Positions 19,308 through 35,206 of a stretch of 64,000 nt of DNA are shown piece by piece (positions within the stretch are counted from its first letter, which is position 1; each line of letters opens with the position of its first letter). The DNA is from Methylomarinovum tepidoasis (GTDB taxonomy: Bacteria > Pseudomonadota > Gammaproteobacteria > Methylococcales > Methylothermaceae): contig NZ_AP024718.1 in assembly GCF_030294985.1 (NCBI RefSeq), positions 558,001 through 622,000 of the forward strand, in the 5' to 3' direction. The position numbers and the translations under genes are program-made. The notes beneath the pieces are model-generated. The model was not told where the DNA came from, made no database searches, and worked only from the letters and a program-made list of their open reading frames with translations.

Positions 19308-20552
19308 TTACATGAAGGTCGGGATCAGCGGAGCGTCAATCATCACCATCTGGCGGTTGCCGGCATCGTCATAGAAGAACAGCATACCACCCATCCGGCT
19401 GTCCGGGTCGTAGATGATGTCGGCCAGACGATACACTTCCCAGGCAGCGTCCGATGCGGTCACTTCGAGCGTCTTGGTTTCGCCCGGAGCGATCGGATCG
19501 TTCGGCACCACGGTCAGACCTTCGTCCGCCAGCAAGTCTTCCGGATAGCCGGTGTCGTCTTCGCAAACTTCCGGATTCATGAAACGCACGTTGGCGGTCA
19601 TGAATTCGCACAGCTGGACCGGACGATCACCATTGTTGGTGACGGTCAGCACCATCTTCATGGCACGGCCCGGTACACGGTAGGTGGCTTCGTCCACCTT
19701 GACGTCCACAGTCGGGGTGGGCATCTGGATCGGCTTGATGCCACGCAGCACACCCGCCTGCAGCGGAATGGTCACCGGATACTTGCTCTGGGTGCTGCTG
19801 TAGCCGAAGATCACCAGCAGAAGGGTGGCGGCGCCAAACAGCATGCCCACCTTCTTTTCGGTCGGGGTGATCAGTTCGTCACCACGGCCGGCATTGACCA
19901 TCACCATGCGCGGCAGGAACACCGGCTTGCGCACGAAGTAGAGGATCCACGCCAGACCGATGGCATACCACAGCACGTGCCAGAACACGGTGTTGCCCGT
20001 GTTGTAGGTTTCCAGGTCGACGGTCTGTCCGGTCAGGGTGGTGATCGGGTTCTTGAACTCGCTCAGCTTCCCTTCAACGATCACCCATTTACCCGGACCG
20101 ATGATCGGACCACCGCCTTCGACGTTCAGCATCGGGTGAACGTGCCATTCACCCCCGCGGCGGGCTTTGAGCACCACGCGGAAGGCATAGGTGTTGCCGA
20201 TTTCCAGCCGCACCGAACGCGGCACAAAGGTGTCGCCGATGTAGGATTCCTTGCGGATGAACACAGGCCCAGGAATCCCGACGTTCAGGAACGACACTTC
20301 GGGCGGATCCACGGACTCAGGCCAGCCTGAAAAAACGTGGAATTTGCCACTGATTTCCATCTCTTCGTTGACCTTGACCTGGTCAGTAGACCAGTTGAGG
20401 TCGAACCAGTGGATGGTACGCATACGCAGGAACGCCGCCTGCGACTTTTCACCGTGGGCAGAAGCCGCCGGGGTGTACATCACCGCCGCCGCCAGGGTCA
20501 TCAGCAGGCCGACCAGCGACCAGCGGGTGAGCCTATCTCTTATCGTTTTCAT
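19308..20552 (-). CDS. pmoB: Particulate methane monooxygenase subunit B
   Basis: The 414-aa copper-binding subunit of the membrane methane monooxygenase, the same length as Methylococcus capsulatus PmoB. The signal peptide is cleaved after SAASA-type residues, leaving His33 at the mature N-terminus (HGEKSQAAFLRMRT). The CuB ligands His33, His137 and His139 (GEWHVHPM) are all present, as are His48 and His72. Two cupredoxin domains are separated by two membrane helices (about 185-205 and 233-252). The start ATG 20552 has GAGGAGG upstream. It is the last gene of pmoCAB. Confidence 0.98.
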   Translation of the reverse strand: MKTIRDRLTRWSLVGLLMTLAAAVMYTPAASAHGEKSQAAFLRMRTIHWFDLNWSTDQVKVNEEMEISGKFHVFSGWPESVDPPEVSFLNVGIPGPVFIRKESYIGDTFVPRSVRLEIGNTYAFRVVLKARRGGEWHVHPMLNVEGGGPIIGPGKWVIVEGKLSEFKNPITTLTGQTVDLETYNTGNTVFWHVLWYAIGLAWILYFVRKPVFLPRMVMVNAGRGDELITPTEKKVGMLFGAATLLLVIFGYSSTQSKYPVTIPLQAGVLRGIKPIQMPTPTVDVKVDEATYRVPGRAMKMVLTVTNNGDRPVQLCEFMTANVRFMNPEVCEDDTGYPEDLLADEGLTVVPNDPIAPGETKTLEVTASDAAWEVYRLADIIYDPDSRMGGMLFFYDDAGNRQMVMIDAPLIPTFM

Positions 20553-20601
20553 CTATTTCCTCCTCAGATGTGTCTGTCGATGTCGATGCGCGCAAAATCC
20601 A

Positions 20602-21345
20602 TCAGGTCTTCTTGATGAATTTCACGGTGCCGAACCAGCGGCCCACAAAGTGCCACATGAAGTAGATCAGAATGGACATGAACCCGGCAAAGAAGGCAGA
20701 CACCGGAACCACGTCCTTACCGAAAGTACGCAGGGTACCCTTTTCCACCATGCGGATGTATTCCGGCGTACCGGTACGCACATAGTGGTAACCCTGAATG
20801 TCGGCAATCGACATCAGCATGCCGTTGTATTCCACCGGCACGTGCAGCGGGCCAATGACCGGCCAGTTGCCCGGGTACATCAACAGACCCCAGCCCAGAC
20901 CACCAATCACGGCGGTGAACAGGAAGCTGCCGGACATCATCAGCACAACATCAAGGAAAATCGCCATGTGGACCGCGGCGGTCGGGAAGCAGAAGTTGAT
21001 CGGGAAATAGGTCCAACCCCAGAAGTTGAAGTAGCGGTTGATCCATTCACCGAGCAAAATCCCCAGAACACACACCGTGGCACCCCACGGCAGACGCAGG
21101 CGCTCCCACAAAACAGCCTGAACCGCCGCCGGGAAGGTGATCATGACGATCGGATACACCGTCACCCACAGACGACGGTCTTTCCAGTCGGACCAGAAGT
21201 CCCAGTCACCCATGGTCAGCATGCCATGGATGTGGTAGGAACCGGTCAGTACCATAAACAGGATGAACAGGCCCAGGTAGTCTACCCACCTGGAGGCCTG
21301 GACTGCTTCGGCGTGTGACCGAACAACAGATGCAGCAGTGCTCAT
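20602..21345 (-). CDS. pmoA: Particulate methane monooxygenase subunit A
   Basis: Integral membrane subunit of 247 aa, identical in length to M. capsulatus PmoA, with about seven hydrophobic segments. Diagnostic pmoA segments are present: GDWDFWSDWKDRR (the usual forward-primer region), NFWGWTYFPINFCFP, and the C-terminal region around MWHFVGRWFG. The methane type (not ammonia type) is suggested by the overall Type I PmoA-like sequence. The start ATG 21345 has GGAGGTAAATA upstream. Confidence 0.98.
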   Translation of the reverse strand: MSTAASVVRSHAEAVQASRWVDYLGLFILFMVLTGSYHIHGMLTMGDWDFWSDWKDRRLWVTVYPIVMITFPAAVQAVLWERLRLPWGATVCVLGILLGEWINRYFNFWGWTYFPINFCFPTAAVHMAIFLDVVLMMSGSFLFTAVIGGLGWGLLMYPGNWPVIGPLHVPVEYNGMLMSIADIQGYHYVRTGTPEYIRMVEKGTLRTFGKDVVPVSAFFAGFMSILIYFMWHFVGRWFGTVKFIKKT

Positions 21346-21419
21346 TATTTACCTCCAAAGTCGCTTGTTGTTGCTTTACCACCAGCCTTTAAGACCGGCT
21401 TCTCTTCGCCTCCCTGGCA

Positions 21420-21449
21420 GGGAGGCCACCAGCGCCCCGGCGGCCTCCC
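21420..21449 (-). other. Intercistronic hairpin between pmoC and pmoA
   Basis: GGGAGGCC (21420-21427) pairs with GGCCTCCC (21442-21449) around a 14-nt loop, in the 134-bp gap between pmoC and pmoA. There is no T-tract. A processing, stability or partial-termination role is possible. Confidence 0.6.
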
Positions 21450-21479
21450 TCAACAAACATCCAGCAAGCTAGATGTCGA

Positions 21480-22301
21480 TCAGTCCATCCACTGAGCCTG
21501 GTCTTCGCCGACGCGGGCGACCGCCTGGTCGTAAACCTCACCGCACAGCGGCTTGCCAATCAGATTCAGGAAGCTGGCAAACACCTGAAGCAGCAGCCCC
21601 AGAATCGCCAGCGCAAACCACCCAAACACCACAAATCCGTAGTGCAGCGGCGCCACAAACAGCTCTTCCATGAACCAGAAAGTGTGACCCCATTCGTTCA
21701 GACCCACGTTCGGCAGAATCATGAACGGCCCCACCACCGAAATCAGATACGGCAGCGACAGACCCTTCTTCTGGTAATTCCAGTACGGAAGACGGGTGTG
21801 CGCATAAATAAACGCCGCAAAGCCAGTGATGATGTAGATCGGGTAGCTCAGATAGAACTCGATAATGTGGCTCGGCGTGAAGTCCGTGTCACGAACGATG
21901 GTCTGATGCCAGGTGCCGTCCTGTTCGGTGAAGTAGCTCGCACCCCAGTAAATCGCCCACGCATAGGCCACCAGCCAGACAAGATGGGTGAAATTGCGGC
22001 GCAGCTCTTCTCGCGTCCCGGCAATCGCTTCCACATTGCGATCACGGGTCCGCCACAGATAGCCCCACAGCACCGAGGCCGTAATAACCTCAGCCACAAT
22101 CTCGATGTACAGGAAGTTCATCCAGTAAGTCTCAAATTCCGGCGCAAAAGAGTCCAGGCCAGCACTCCAGCCGTAAACCCCTTCGTACCATCGGACCCAG
22201 GCGTAAAACACCGAATAAATCGCGATCGCAAACACCAGCCAGCGCACGTTCAGAAGCGGGGCTTCCTGCTCTGCGCCAACAGCTTGAGTCGTTGCAGCCA
22301 T
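21480..22301 (-). CDS. pmoC: Particulate methane monooxygenase subunit C
   Basis: Membrane subunit of 273 aa, first gene of pmoCAB. The start is ATG 22301 (MAATTQAVGAEQ), which has an ideal AAAGGAGG 7 nt upstream and matches known PmoC N-termini; an upstream in-frame ATG at 22328 would precede that ribosome site. The metal-site region is intact (RDTDFTPSHIIEFYLSYP, with the Asp and His ligands assigned to the CuC/CuD site in known structures). WYEGVYGWSAGLDSF and NEWGHTFWFMEELFVAP are also characteristic. A strong-looking sigma-70 promoter is present upstream. Confidence 0.98.
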   Translation of the reverse strand: MAATTQAVGAEQEAPLLNVRWLVFAIAIYSVFYAWVRWYEGVYGWSAGLDSFAPEFETYWMNFLYIEIVAEVITASVLWGYLWRTRDRNVEAIAGTREELRRNFTHLVWLVAYAWAIYWGASYFTEQDGTWHQTIVRDTDFTPSHIIEFYLSYPIYIITGFAAFIYAHTRLPYWNYQKKGLSLPYLISVVGPFMILPNVGLNEWGHTFWFMEELFVAPLHYGFVVFGWFALAILGLLLQVFASFLNLIGKPLCGEVYDQAVARVGEDQAQWMD

Positions 22302-22419
22302 TGAGTTACCTCCTTTAAGTTCACTCAATCTAAGTTTTCGTTGGGTTTCGCTCCATCCCTAAACGCTCCACCTGCAAACCCTAAAGCTCACAGGCGACCT
22401 CCTTCCTTCGGTATCCGCC

Positions 22420-22447
22420 AGTCTAGCATCGGCTTGGGGGTTGTCAA
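22420..22447 (-). promoter_or_regulatory. Sigma-70 promoter of pmoCAB
   Basis: On the minus strand, a perfect TTGACA (22442-22447), a 16-nt spacer and TAGACT (22420-22425) lie about 120 bp before the pmoC ATG, giving a long leader. The -35 box is 10 bp from the palindrome at 22457-22490. Confidence 0.75.
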
Positions 22448-22456
22448 GAGGCTCTG

Positions 22457-22490
22457 CGGCATATCCCACAGCCGTCTGCGGGATATGCCG
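22457..22490. promoter_or_regulatory. 34-bp palindrome between fhs and the pmo promoter
   Basis: Perfect 11-bp arms CGGCATATCCC and GGGATATGCCG. Inside them a further CAG/CTG pair surrounds a CCGT centre (one A/C mismatch). It lies 7 bp after the fhs stop and 9 bp upstream of the pmoC -35 box. It lacks a T-tract in either direction, so it may be an operator for pmo, a terminator-like end of fhs, or both. Confidence 0.7.
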
Positions 22491-22497
22491 GCACGGA

Positions 22498-24168
22498 TCA
22501 GAATAGCCCGCTGATCTGCCCGTTTTCATCGATGTCTATGCGCTCTGCCGCCGGCGATTTCGGCAACCCCGGCATGGTCATGATGTTGCCGCAGATAACG
22601 ACGATGAATTCGGCCCCGTAGGCCGGACGCACTTCGCGGATGGTGACCGTGTGGCCGGTGGGCGCCCCCCGCAGCTCCGGGTCGCAGGCGAAGGAGTACT
22701 GGGTCTTGGCCATGCAGATGGGGAAATGGCGGCACTCCCGGTCCAACGCCTCGATCTGGCGTCTGATTCTGGAATCGGCGCTGACGCCGGCGGCGCCATA
22801 GAGTCGGGTGGCGATGGTTTCGATCTTTTCCCATAAGGGAAGATCGTCTTCATAGAGGAAACGGAACTGATTGGGTGCGCTTACCAGATTCACCACCTCG
22901 CGGGCCAGCGCCTCCACGCCTGCGCCGCCTTCGGCCCAGTGCCTGCAGACGACGGCTTTTCCGCCGATGGCGGCCACTTTTTCCGTCAACAGACAAATCT
23001 CGGCCTCGGTATCGCTGACGAAATGGTTGATGGCCACCACGCACGGCAGGCCGAACTGTTCGCGGATGTTGCGGAAATGGCGCTCCAGATTGGTGAAACC
23101 GGCCTCCAGGGCCGCAAGGTTCTCCTCCTGGAGTGCATCCTTGGACACACCACCGTGCATCTTCAGCGCCCGCACGGTAGCGACCAGCACTACGGCATCG
23201 GGGCGCAGCCCGGTCTTGCGGCATTTGATGTCGATGAACTTCTCCGCCCCCAGATCGGCGCCGAAGCCGGCCTCGGTGACCACATAGTCGGCCATTTTCA
23301 GGGCGGTTTTGGTGGCGATGGCGGTGTTGCAACCGTGGGCGATGTTGGCGAACGGCCCGCCGTGGACGAAAGCCAGATTGTTCTCCAGGGTTTGGACCAG
23401 ATTGGGACGGATGGCGTCCTTGAGCAGGGCCGCCATCGCTCCCTGGGCCTTCAGATCGCGGGCGAAGACCTTGCCACCGTCACGGGCGTAGCCGACCAGC
23501 ACCTTTCCCAGCTGGCGCTTGAGCTCACCGAGATCGTTCACCAGACACAGGATGGCCATGACCTCGGAGGCGACCACGATGTCGAAACCATCCTCCCGCG
23601 GCACACCGTTGACGCGCCCTCCCAGACCTTCGACGATCTGGCGCAGATTGCGGTCGTTCATGTCGATGACCCGCTTCCATGCCATCTGCCGCACGTCCAG
23701 ATCCAGAGCGTTGCCATGGTGAATGTGGTTGTCCGCCAGCGCCGAGAGCAGATTGTGGGCCACGCCGATGGCGTGAAAATCCCCGGTGAAATGCAGGTTG
23801 ATGTCCTCCATCGGCACCACCTGGGCCCGGCCACCGCCGGCCGCCCCGCCCTTGATGCCGAAACAGGGCCCGAGGGAAGGCTCGCGCAGACAGATCAGGG
23901 CTTTTTTGCCGATCCGGTTGAGGGCATCGCCCAGCCCCACGGTGGTGGTGGTCTTGCCTTCTCCGGCCGGCGTCGGGCTGATGGCGGTCACCAGGATCAG
24001 CTTGCCGTCGGGACGGTCATGCAGGGACTTGATGTAATCGAACGACAGCTTGGCCTTGTAATGGCCGTAGGGATCGAGGTGCTGAGGTGCGATGCCGAAC
24101 CGATCCTGCGCCAGTTCGACGATGGGCCGCAGGGTGGCCTGGCGGGCGATTTCGATATCCGAAAGCAT
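22498..24168 (-). CDS. fhs: Formate-tetrahydrofolate ligase
   Basis: ATP-dependent formyl-THF synthetase of 556 aa (family about 557), called ftfL in methylotrophs. It feeds formate carbon into the tetrahydrofolate pool and hence serine. The P-loop-like [34 protein letters not shown], the HLNLT-like [12 protein letters not shown] region and [19 protein letters not shown] are all family signatures. The start chosen is ATG 24168 (MLSDIEIA) with GGGAGG upstream, instead of the extended frame to 24225. It lies directly upstream of pmoCAB on the same strand, but the palindrome and a separate promoter intervene. Confidence 0.96.
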
Positions 24169-24253
24169 AAACGGCGTGCCTCCCGAACAGGGTCTGATAA
24201 TTGGACGAATTGCCTGGAAGCGCACAGGGTAGGGGATGACCGCCCAGAACGCA

Positions 24254-28817: not shown

Positions 28818-28853
28818 ACAGGCCCGCAGCGGACGAACCGGCTGCGGGCCTGT
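28818..28853. other. Strong hairpin between the RRM gene and the ubi gene
   Basis: Perfect 13-bp arms ACAGGCCCGCAGC and GCTGCGGGCCTGT around a 10-nt loop. It lies 60 bp beyond the RRM gene stop. No T-tract follows on either strand, so a terminator role is possible but unproven. Confidence 0.55.
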
Positions 28854-32508: not shown

Positions 32509-32904
32509 TTGGATACGGACACCTGCATCTTTCTGATCCGCCACCATCCGCCGGAAGCGCGGGAACGTTTCCAGGCCATCGGGCCGACGCATCTGTTCAT
32601 CTCTACCGTCACGCTGTTCGAACTGGCTTACGGCGCCGAACGCAGCCGCAGGCAGGCGCACAACCGCGCCTGCCTGCAGCGCCTGGTGGCGCTGTTGAAT
32701 CTCGTTCCCTTCGATACCGAAGCCGCCTGGACGGCAGCCCGTCTCCGGGCCGAACTGGCCGCAGCCGGCACCCCCATCGGCCCTTACGACGTTCAGATCG
32801 CCGCCATCGCCCTCAGCCGCAACATGACGCTGGTATCCAACAATCTGCGGGAATTCCGCCGTATCGCCGACCTGCGCAGCGAAACCTGGGTATTGCCGGC
32901 ATGA
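32509..32904 (+). CDS. vapC: VapC-type PIN-domain toxin
   Basis: PIN ribonuclease, about 131 aa. The catalytic acids are visible: the N-terminal LLDTDTCIFLI, the FELAYGAERS glutamate, and the C-terminal PIGPYDVQIAAIAL aspartate. No ATG stands at the expected place; homology-like sequence begins at about 32494 with ATA (ITDYLLDTD). The first canonical start downstream is TTG 32509; GTG 32443 and ATG 32398 are further upstream in the same frame. So the start is unsettled. The stop overlaps the next permease ATG (ATGA), linking toxin and transporter translation. Confidence 0.8.
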   Translation: MDTDTCIFLIRHHPPEARERFQAIGPTHLFISTVTLFELAYGAERSRRQAHNRACLQRLVALLNLVPFDTEAAWTAARLRAELAAAGTPIGPYDVQIAAIALSRNMTLVSNNLREFRRIADLRSETWVLPA

Positions 32905-33878: not shown

Positions 33879-35206
33879 CCTGGGTGCCGCTGTGGACCGA
33901 TGCCCTGCTGTATCTGCTGCTGGCCGCGCTGGCGGCCCTGGCGCTTTACGCCCGGCGCCAGGAACATCTGCGCCGTCCCTGGCGCCGGGTGGTCCGCAGC
34001 CGGGTGGCGATGGTGTCCCTGGTGGTCCTGGCGGCCTTCAGCGCCATCGGCCTGCTCGACTCGCTGCATTTCCGCGCCCCGGACAGCGGCGAGGTGCTGA
34101 GCCTGTTCGACCGTCTGGCCACGCCGCTGCGCACCCACATGGAGAAGACCTATTCGGCGCCCTTCGCCACCCATCTCTACAGCCGCGAGTGGCTCGTGGT
34201 CGAGGGCAGGCGGGTCTGGACCCATCCCCGCTTGCGCTACGGCGGCGCCCATCTGCGCGACCCGGCGGAGAAATGGCCCGACATCGCCCGCACCGCCGCC
34301 ATCGGCGCGCTCAAAGGGTTGGTGGTGTGGAGCGGGGCTTTCCTCGCCGTCGCCCTGGCCCGCCGCGGCCGCCCATCCCGGGATTTTCCCTGGAAAACGG
34401 TGGCCGCTACCGTCGCCGTGCTGTCGATCGGCGGTTTCGCCGTTGCCGGGCTGAGCCTCAAATACCACGTCCTGGGCACCGACAAGGTGGGTGAGGACGT
34501 GCTCTACCAGAGCCTCAAAAGCATCCGCACCGGGCTGGTTCTCGGCACCCTCACTACCCTGGTGATGCTGCCCTTCGCCATCGCCCTGGGGGTGCTGGCG
34601 GGCTATTTCCGCGGCTGGGTGGACGACGTGATCCAGTACCTCTACACCACCCTCAACTCCATCCCCGGCGTCCTGCTCATCGCCGCCGCCATCCTCATGC
34701 TGCAAGTGTACATGGCCACCCACGCCGAGTCCTTCACCAACGTGGCGGTGCGGGCGGATCTGCGCCTGTTCTTCCTATGCCTGATCCTGGGCGTGACCAG
34801 CTGGACCGGCCTGTGCCGCCTGCTGCGGGCGGAAACCCTGAAGCTACGGGAGATGGAATACGTCCAGGCGGCCCGCGCCTTGGGCGTGTCCCACGGGCGC
34901 ATCCTGGTGTGTCACATCGTCCCCAACCTGTTCCATATCGTGCTGATTTCCGTGGTGCTGGATTTCAGCAGTCTGGTGCTGGCCGAGGCGGTGCTCGCCT
35001 ATGTCAACATCGGCGTCGATCCCACCACCTACAGCTGGGGCAACATGATCAACAGCGCCCGCCTGGAACTGGCGCGCGAGCCGGTGGTCTGGTGGACCCT
35101 GGCCGCCGCTTTCCTGTTCATGTTCAGTTTCGTGCTCGCCGCCAACCTGTTCGCCGACGTGGTGCGCGACGCCTTCGATCCCCGCCGCGCGGAGGAAAGC
35201 GGATGA
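33875..35206 (+). CDS. Peptide ABC transporter permease (OppC/YejE-like), extended
   Basis: A 443-aa permease, longer than usual (YejE about 340). An N-terminal helix, a second segment near 44-62, an extra hydrophobic region near 155-190 and the core permease from about 200 are visible. The EAA loop is EMEYVQAARALGVSHGRIL. The chosen ATG 33875 overlaps the previous stop (ATGA). Together with the permease upstream and the fused ATPase at 36.2 kb it forms the transporter core. Confidence 0.88.
   Translation: MTWVPLWTDALLYLLLAALAALALYARRQEHLRRPWRRVVRSRVAMVSLVVLAAFSAIGLLDSLHFRAPDSGEVLSLFDRLATPLRTHMEKTYSAPFATHLYSREWLVVEGRRVWTHPRLRYGGAHLRDPAEKWPDIARTAAIGALKGLVVWSGAFLAVALARRGRPSRDFPWKTVAATVAVLSIGGFAVAGLSLKYHVLGTDKVGEDVLYQSLKSIRTGLVLGTLTTLVMLPFAIALGVLAGYFRGWVDDVIQYLYTTLNSIPGVLLIAAAILMLQVYMATHAESFTNVAVRADLRLFFLCLILGVTSWTGLCRLLRAETLKLREMEYVQAARALGVSHGRILVCHIVPNLFHIVLISVVLDFSSLVLAEAVLAYVNIGVDPTTYSWGNMINSARLELAREPVVWWTLAAAFLFMFSFVLAANLFADVVRDAFDPRRAEESG

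Follow-up and report, generated by a model that had tools for sequence, protein, structure and literature searches.

A dyad upstream of pmoCAB in Methylomarinovum tepidoasis as a probable pair of sigma-54 activator sites

What is the role of the 34-bp palindrome which separates fhs from the promoter of the pmoCAB operon in Methylomarinovum tepidoasis? The first-pass annotation of this 64,000-nucleotide stretch (contig NZ_AP024718.1, positions 558,001 to 622,000; hereafter the window) proposed a regulator-binding operator, perhaps concerned with copper. Larsen and Karlsen state that the copper control of pMMO and copper uptake in the gammaproteobacterial methanotrophs are not fully worked out (PMC4831470). 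We consider it probable that the dyad is a pair of enhancer sites (UAS) for a sigma-54 enhancer-binding protein heading a copper-limitation regulon in the Methylococcales, and that it acts in the manner of an operator at this operon (pmoCAB-1).

The dyad at the fhs-pmoC junction

The features of the junction, with the basis of each assignment, are as follows.

22498-24225, minus strand: fhs (formate-tetrahydrofolate ligase), the upstream gene, stop TGA at 22500-22498 (open reading frame; name from the first-pass annotation)
22457-22490, no strand: 34-bp dyad as first reported, perfect 11-bp arms, overlapping both UAS (sequence, fold and arm analysis)
22442-22447, minus strand: -35 hexamer TTGACA of the sigma-70-type promoter of pmoCAB-1 (invariant in eight genomes and in second pmoCAB copies)
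22420-22425, minus strand: -10 hexamer TAGACT, with TG upstream and a 16-nt spacer (conserved in eight genomes and in second pmoCAB copies)
21480-22301, minus strand: pmoC of pmoCAB copy 1, ATG at 22301 (open reading frame; earlier name and gene order pmoC-pmoA-pmoB)
20602-21345, minus strand: pmoA of copy 1 (open reading frame)
19308-20552, minus strand: pmoB of copy 1 (open reading frame)

The minus strand reads fhs, 7 nt, the dyad (22490-22457), 9 nt, TTGACA (22447-22442), 16 nt, TAGACT, a leader of about 110 nt, and then pmoC, pmoA and pmoB. The palindrome is present at 22457-22490 as annotated, with its perfect 11-bp arms and inner CAG/CTG pair, and it lies between the fhs stop and TTGACA; its distance from the latter is 9 nt rather than the 10 originally given. 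Read from the window, its sequence is CGGCATATCCC-A-CAG-CCGT-CTG-C-GGGATATGCCG. Inverted-repeat analysis gives 15-nt arms (93% complementary) and a 4-nt loop. In the transcript (minus strand) the sole A/C mismatch becomes G-U, and the RNA folds into a continuous 15-bp stem (-34.6 kcal/mol, z -4.9). Inverted repeats of this strength (15-nt arms, at most one mismatch, loop of 3-10) number four in the 64-kb window versus a total of one in 12 Markov shuffles, and the exact arm-gap-arm pattern occurs a single time in the genome. The dyad is real and not a chance occurrence. The three other long inverted repeats, at 28818-28853, 32645-32680 and 33951-33989, also have 15-nt arms with one mismatch; they are GC-rich and none is followed by a T-tract. 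A search against known RNA families found tRNAs alone.

Lying 7 nt past the fhs stop, the dyad could be the 3'-end hairpin of the fhs transcript, that is, a U-less terminator or an RNA-stability stem. The uninterrupted 15-bp stem, with its one G-U pair and z of -4.9, speaks for such a reading, and several other genera also possess a strong hairpin soon past the fhs stop, but with other sequences. No T-tract follows the dyad in the window sequence, however. The stem is not kept in two genomes of the genus (G005 and G009, 10-11 of 15 pairs at most) though the promoter-proximal half is, while three others (G001, G006 and G008) have A.A and G.G mismatches in common, disruptive to a stem yet compatible with the DNA motif. 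Moreover, these 16-mers turn up again in front of unrelated genes. We regard this reading as improbable, although a dual role in this species, as fhs 3' hairpin and UAS pair, is possible. An intrinsic terminator was rejected: the stem is GC-rich, but the T-tract is absent and the RNA stem is not conserved in all relatives, in agreement with the earlier judgement that a simple terminator is not the best interpretation.

Paired 16-bp sites and their sigma-54 promoters

The dyad reads best as a tandem of two 16-bp palindromes with the consensus TGYGKSAWATSMCRCA, each half together with its two flanking bases forming a near-palindrome. Two side-by-side copies of a palindromic site necessarily resemble a long hairpin, which accounts for the 34-bp dyad of the first-pass annotation; the natural units appear to be the two sites, spanning 22455-22492, and the dyad edges at 22457 and 22490 would not be natural ones. 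The centres of the sites are 22 bp apart.

22455-22470, minus strand: proximal UAS, 16-bp palindrome TGTGGGATATGCCGCA, 7 nt upstream of the -35 box (no mismatches to TGYGGSATATSCCRCA; 25.5 bits)
22477-22492, minus strand: distal UAS, half-degenerate 16-bp palindrome GCCGGCATATCCCGCA (two mismatches; 12.7 bits)

Only five exact matches to TGYGGSATATSCCRCA are found in the genome, the proximal UAS being one of them. Together with partners bearing one or two mismatches they make up four paired loci, namely the fhs-pmoC junction, C1:546367/546388, C1:848256/848275 and C1:1543636/1543656. One additional match, at one mismatch, is unpaired. The three non-pmo pairs are all upstream of genes. Two further candidates were discarded at this point. 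A REP-like dispersed repeat does not fit a dyad which occurs once as a whole and as a 16-mer pair at four loci; and the idea that the dyad belongs to fhs, raised by a second pmo copy without it, was dropped on finding the same 16-mer pairs before unrelated genes.

Allowing at most one mismatch, the motif was found at 67 sites, versus three for a reversed-pattern control, and is present in all ten genomes of the genus; order-wide, 118 of 161 Methylococcales genomes contain it. This search was seeded with the pmo site, and the likeness of the other sites is therefore partly by construction. The evidence independent of the seed is the sigma-54 spacing and the MCA0424 promoter discussed below. Spacing within pairs is strict (19-22 bp). 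A sigma-54 -24/-12 promoter of the form TGGCAC-N5-TTGCW is located 63-67 nt downstream of 24 of the 31 non-pmo pairs, where 0.17 would be expected at the background rate, and 29 of the 31 have one at either 50-53 or 61-67 nt. Because this distance is fixed, we take the pairs to be enhancer sites (UAS) of a sigma-54 activator. That paired sites might stand to each other as inverted repeats was rejected as a special signal, the counts (13 versus 6, with 12 ties) being unconvincing.

A PWM trained on 62 sites from the 31 non-pmo pairs only ranks the two dyad halves first and second among all 16-mers in the 64-kb window, at 25.5 and 12.7 bits with the next at 9.4. By eye, the 16-bp TGYGK-N6-MCRCA also recalls a CRP/FNR-type site, having the length of TGTGA-N6-TCACA and the same outer TG..CA; strict pairing at 19-22 bp, a fixed sigma-54 promoter distance and a linked sigma-54 activator are, however, non-CRP features, and this very remote reading was dropped in favour of the sigma-54 activator. 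A regulator-binding site is, from the sequence comparisons, much better supported than a terminator. The operator proposed initially is thus supported by the top two PWM matches, the regulon and the eight junctions described below, with the amendment that two tandem sites replace a single 34-bp operator.

The targets in the genus genomes comprise a TonB receptor gene with a divergent regulator gene, a Cu P-type ATPase operon with a divergent DsbD_2 protein gene, and a multihaem cytochrome gene. Some genomes add more TonB receptors, a multicopper oxidase, a PepSY protein and prepilin-like genes. Against NCBIfam, the ATPase scores above the threshold of the Cu-translocating model; the best NCBIfam model for the TonB receptor is TIGR01778 TonB-copper, at a score below the cut-off. 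Prepilin-type genes lie behind a UAS pair and sigma-54 promoter in three records (L129, L132 and L158), and their place in a copper regulon is puzzling.

The candidate regulator and copper

The divergent regulator gene (C1:546375-548138; L105:7376-9142) lies outside the window, 32 kb from pmo, and encodes an N-terminal DsbD_2 membrane domain followed by a soluble half (about residues 265-588) with the AAA+ and HTH domains. Its product (P0001) matches Sigma54_activat (1.9e-69), HTH_8 (Fis-type, 9.2e-16) and DsbD_2, the AAA+ domain carrying GAFTGA and the DsbD_2 domain an HCxGMCG motif. A UAS pair is situated between this gene and that of the TonB receptor in eight of the ten genus genomes. The sigma-54 promoter at this intergenic pair points to the TonB gene and no good one was found toward the regulator gene, as would be expected if the candidate represses its own promoter.

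Close homologs, either fused or consisting of the AAA+/HTH part alone, are encoded in most of the 161 Methylococcales genomes, and the fused form also occurs in records of Thiothrix (L294) and Thiocapsa (L321). The DsbD_2 and activator parts are separate adjoining genes in some genera (e.g. L186). Among the Methylococcales, the motif is present in 115 of 136 genomes with a close homolog versus 3 of 25 without, most of the latter coming from one family and therefore not constituting 25 independent events. Each genome encodes several other sigma-54 activators. The DsbD_2/AAA+(GAFTGA)/Fis-HTH fusion is likely, and on good grounds, the protein which binds the UAS pairs. Searches of openly accessible literature on sigma-54, copper and the regulator found neither the motif nor the fusion protein described.

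Methylococcus provides the connection to copper. In all five genomes the motif, followed at 63-64 nt by a TGGTATCGAAYTTGCC promoter, precedes a CCP_MauG gene and mopE (SACCP-mopE), one or both sites being degenerate in some; mopE was identified by PDB 2vov (E 3.5e-219). This places the sites before genes of the low-copper-induced MCA2590 type: Larsen and Karlsen report that in copper-limited M. capsulatus Bath MCA2590 is up 12-fold and pmoB down sevenfold (PMC4831470). Orthology of the L273-L277 genes to MCA2590 is our surmise, based on the CCP_MauG domain and the mopE neighbour rather than the Bath sequence itself. They also print a sigma-54 promoter before MCA0424, ATGGTTCGCATTTTGCT (PMC4831470). 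The position of this promoter owes nothing to the motif; paired sites lie upstream of it, at distances of 62 and 82-83 nt in four Methylococcus genomes and of 53 and 73 nt in the fifth. Given targets of copper type and the low-copper induction of MCA2590, the regulon is most likely switched on by copper limitation, with copper as the presumptive signal. The copper link was marked as conjecture in the first-pass annotation; the target genes and the published copper response of MCA2590 (PMC4831470) now back it independently.

The pair at pmoCAB-1 and its likeness to known systems

The UAS pair occurs at all eight fhs-pmoC junctions among the genus genomes in which fhs is beside pmoC, with PWM sums of 25-44 bits. 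The proximal site (15-25 bits) is always 6-8 nt from TTGACA; the distal site is degenerate in most (6.5-19 bits), and drift is evident in both the promoter spacer of 16 nt and the linker between the sites. In genome G002 pmoC does not follow fhs, and the dyad is absent from both places. Within the Methylococcales, a pair linked to pmo turned up in this genus alone. Searching other genera for the motif beside TTGACA, with no mismatch allowed, gave matches at other genes and none at pmoC. Another conserved element, TGCGACAATATGCCACATT with TTGACA 5-7 nt further on, precedes non-pmo genes in genomes from two other families of the order (L229, L230, L234, L235 and L241).

The pmo pair has sites of the UAS family but not their usual promoter. 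No conserved -24/-12 element at canonical spacing was found at pmoC in any of the eight genomes; the best scores, 12-15 of 21, are at background level and do not fall at one aligned place. A sigma-54 promoter for pmoC on either strand was accordingly rejected, which leaves the regulator without its known mode of action at that gene. The best sigma-54 match toward fhs is, in most genomes, TGGTCATGATGTTGCC or a close variant, within the fhs coding sequence and 78-92 nt away. The pmoC leader (22302-22413) is long, with conserved blocks GAAGGAAGGAGGTC and AAGGAGGTAACTCA, and is common to the genus members and the second pmoCAB copy.

That second copy (C1 ~2351500-2354860, L062) is 99.7% identical to window positions 19308-22452 over 3134 bp. 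The homology begins at the -35 region and nothing is shared upstream; a similarly sharp boundary is seen in six or more of the other genus genomes, and the two operons resemble a recent duplication or ongoing gene conversion. The region before the second copy scores at PWM background here and in six other genus genomes, that is, the UAS pair is absent, and it therefore distinguishes the two pmoCAB copies. Other genera, like the second copy, do without the pair. The start of homology right at the -35 box and the degenerate distal site could mean that the pair served an earlier gene, beside which a pmoCAB cassette landed. Such a relic, to which we give little probability, sits badly with the proximal site, which in eight genomes still scores 15-25 bits and lies 6-8 nt from the -35 box although the neighbouring spacer has diverged.

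At its usual targets the regulator would bind the pair and activate a sigma-54 promoter about 65 nt downstream. The pair at pmoCAB-1 is directly upstream of a sigma-70 -35 box, where alpha-CTD would touch the DNA, the sites being centred near -50 and -72 given a start at ~22413. Here the regulator may serve as an operator-type factor, most likely repressing when copper is scarce: low copper would engage the activator and reduce the synthesis of copper-demanding pMMO from copy 1, leaving the UAS-free second copy outside its control. Repression of the sigma-70 promoter by the bound activator seems the simplest fit. We rate repression slightly more probable than all other outcomes combined, activation at roughly one chance in four, and little effect as a shade less probable.

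Activation might come about by RNA polymerase contact from -50 and -72, or from an unrecognised sigma-54 start in the leader. It is the usual mode of the regulator, and in four genomes the aligned leader contains a weak GG-N10-GC; yet the best sigma-54 scores at canonical offsets (12-15) are background and share no single aligned place, and low copper lowers pMMO transcripts in Methylococcus (PMC4831470). We consider these routes unlikely.

Returning to repression, we tentatively suggest, at somewhat less than even confidence, that a membrane-embedded, DsbD_2-sensor sigma-54 activator is the copper-starvation master regulator of the Methylococcales (TonB uptake, Cu-ATPase, SACCP-MopE), and that in the Methylothermaceae it has also come to repress a single member of a pair of otherwise identical pMMO operons, acting at a sigma-70 promoter by way of sites that have no sigma-54 promoter. 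pMMO would thereby be divided into a copper-controlled and a copper-independent copy. This offers a concrete candidate for the copper control of methane oxidation, with protein, DNA motif, promoter geometry and order-wide targets named, and suggests that a sigma-54 activator has been reused as a sigma-70 operator protein. Two 99.7% identical operons with and without the sites are a natural experiment, which makes the question directly testable.

The paired palindromes upstream of -24/-12 promoters resemble the UAS of the NtrC, NorR and PspF type, as do the AAA+ activator with GAFTGA and a Fis-type HTH and the location of a pair between an activator gene and a divergently oriented target. Unlike those systems, the pmoC pair abuts a sigma-70 -35 box with no sigma-54 promoter, and the sensing part is a DsbD_2 membrane domain where theirs is a receiver, GAF or PAS domain.

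TyrR at its TYR boxes and NtrC at glnAp1 are activators of this family acting at sigma-70 promoters. The likeness lies in a Fis-HTH protein and in paired boxes next to a sigma-70 promoter, with roughly two helical turns separating the boxes. TyrR is not known to have GAFTGA, whereas the candidate regulator keeps it and serves sigma-54 promoters elsewhere. MmoR, the sigma-54 activator of the sMMO genes in the methanotroph copper switch, is likewise tied to the copper response; it controls sMMO and not the targets listed here, and to our knowledge has no DsbD_2 domain.

For the copper clusters of M. capsulatus Bath, sigma-54, IHF and Fur sites have been proposed, the sections cited here naming neither a UAS pair nor its activator (PMC4831470). 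The SACCP and MCA0424 promoters of these clusters carry the same pair and the same sigma-54 spacing.
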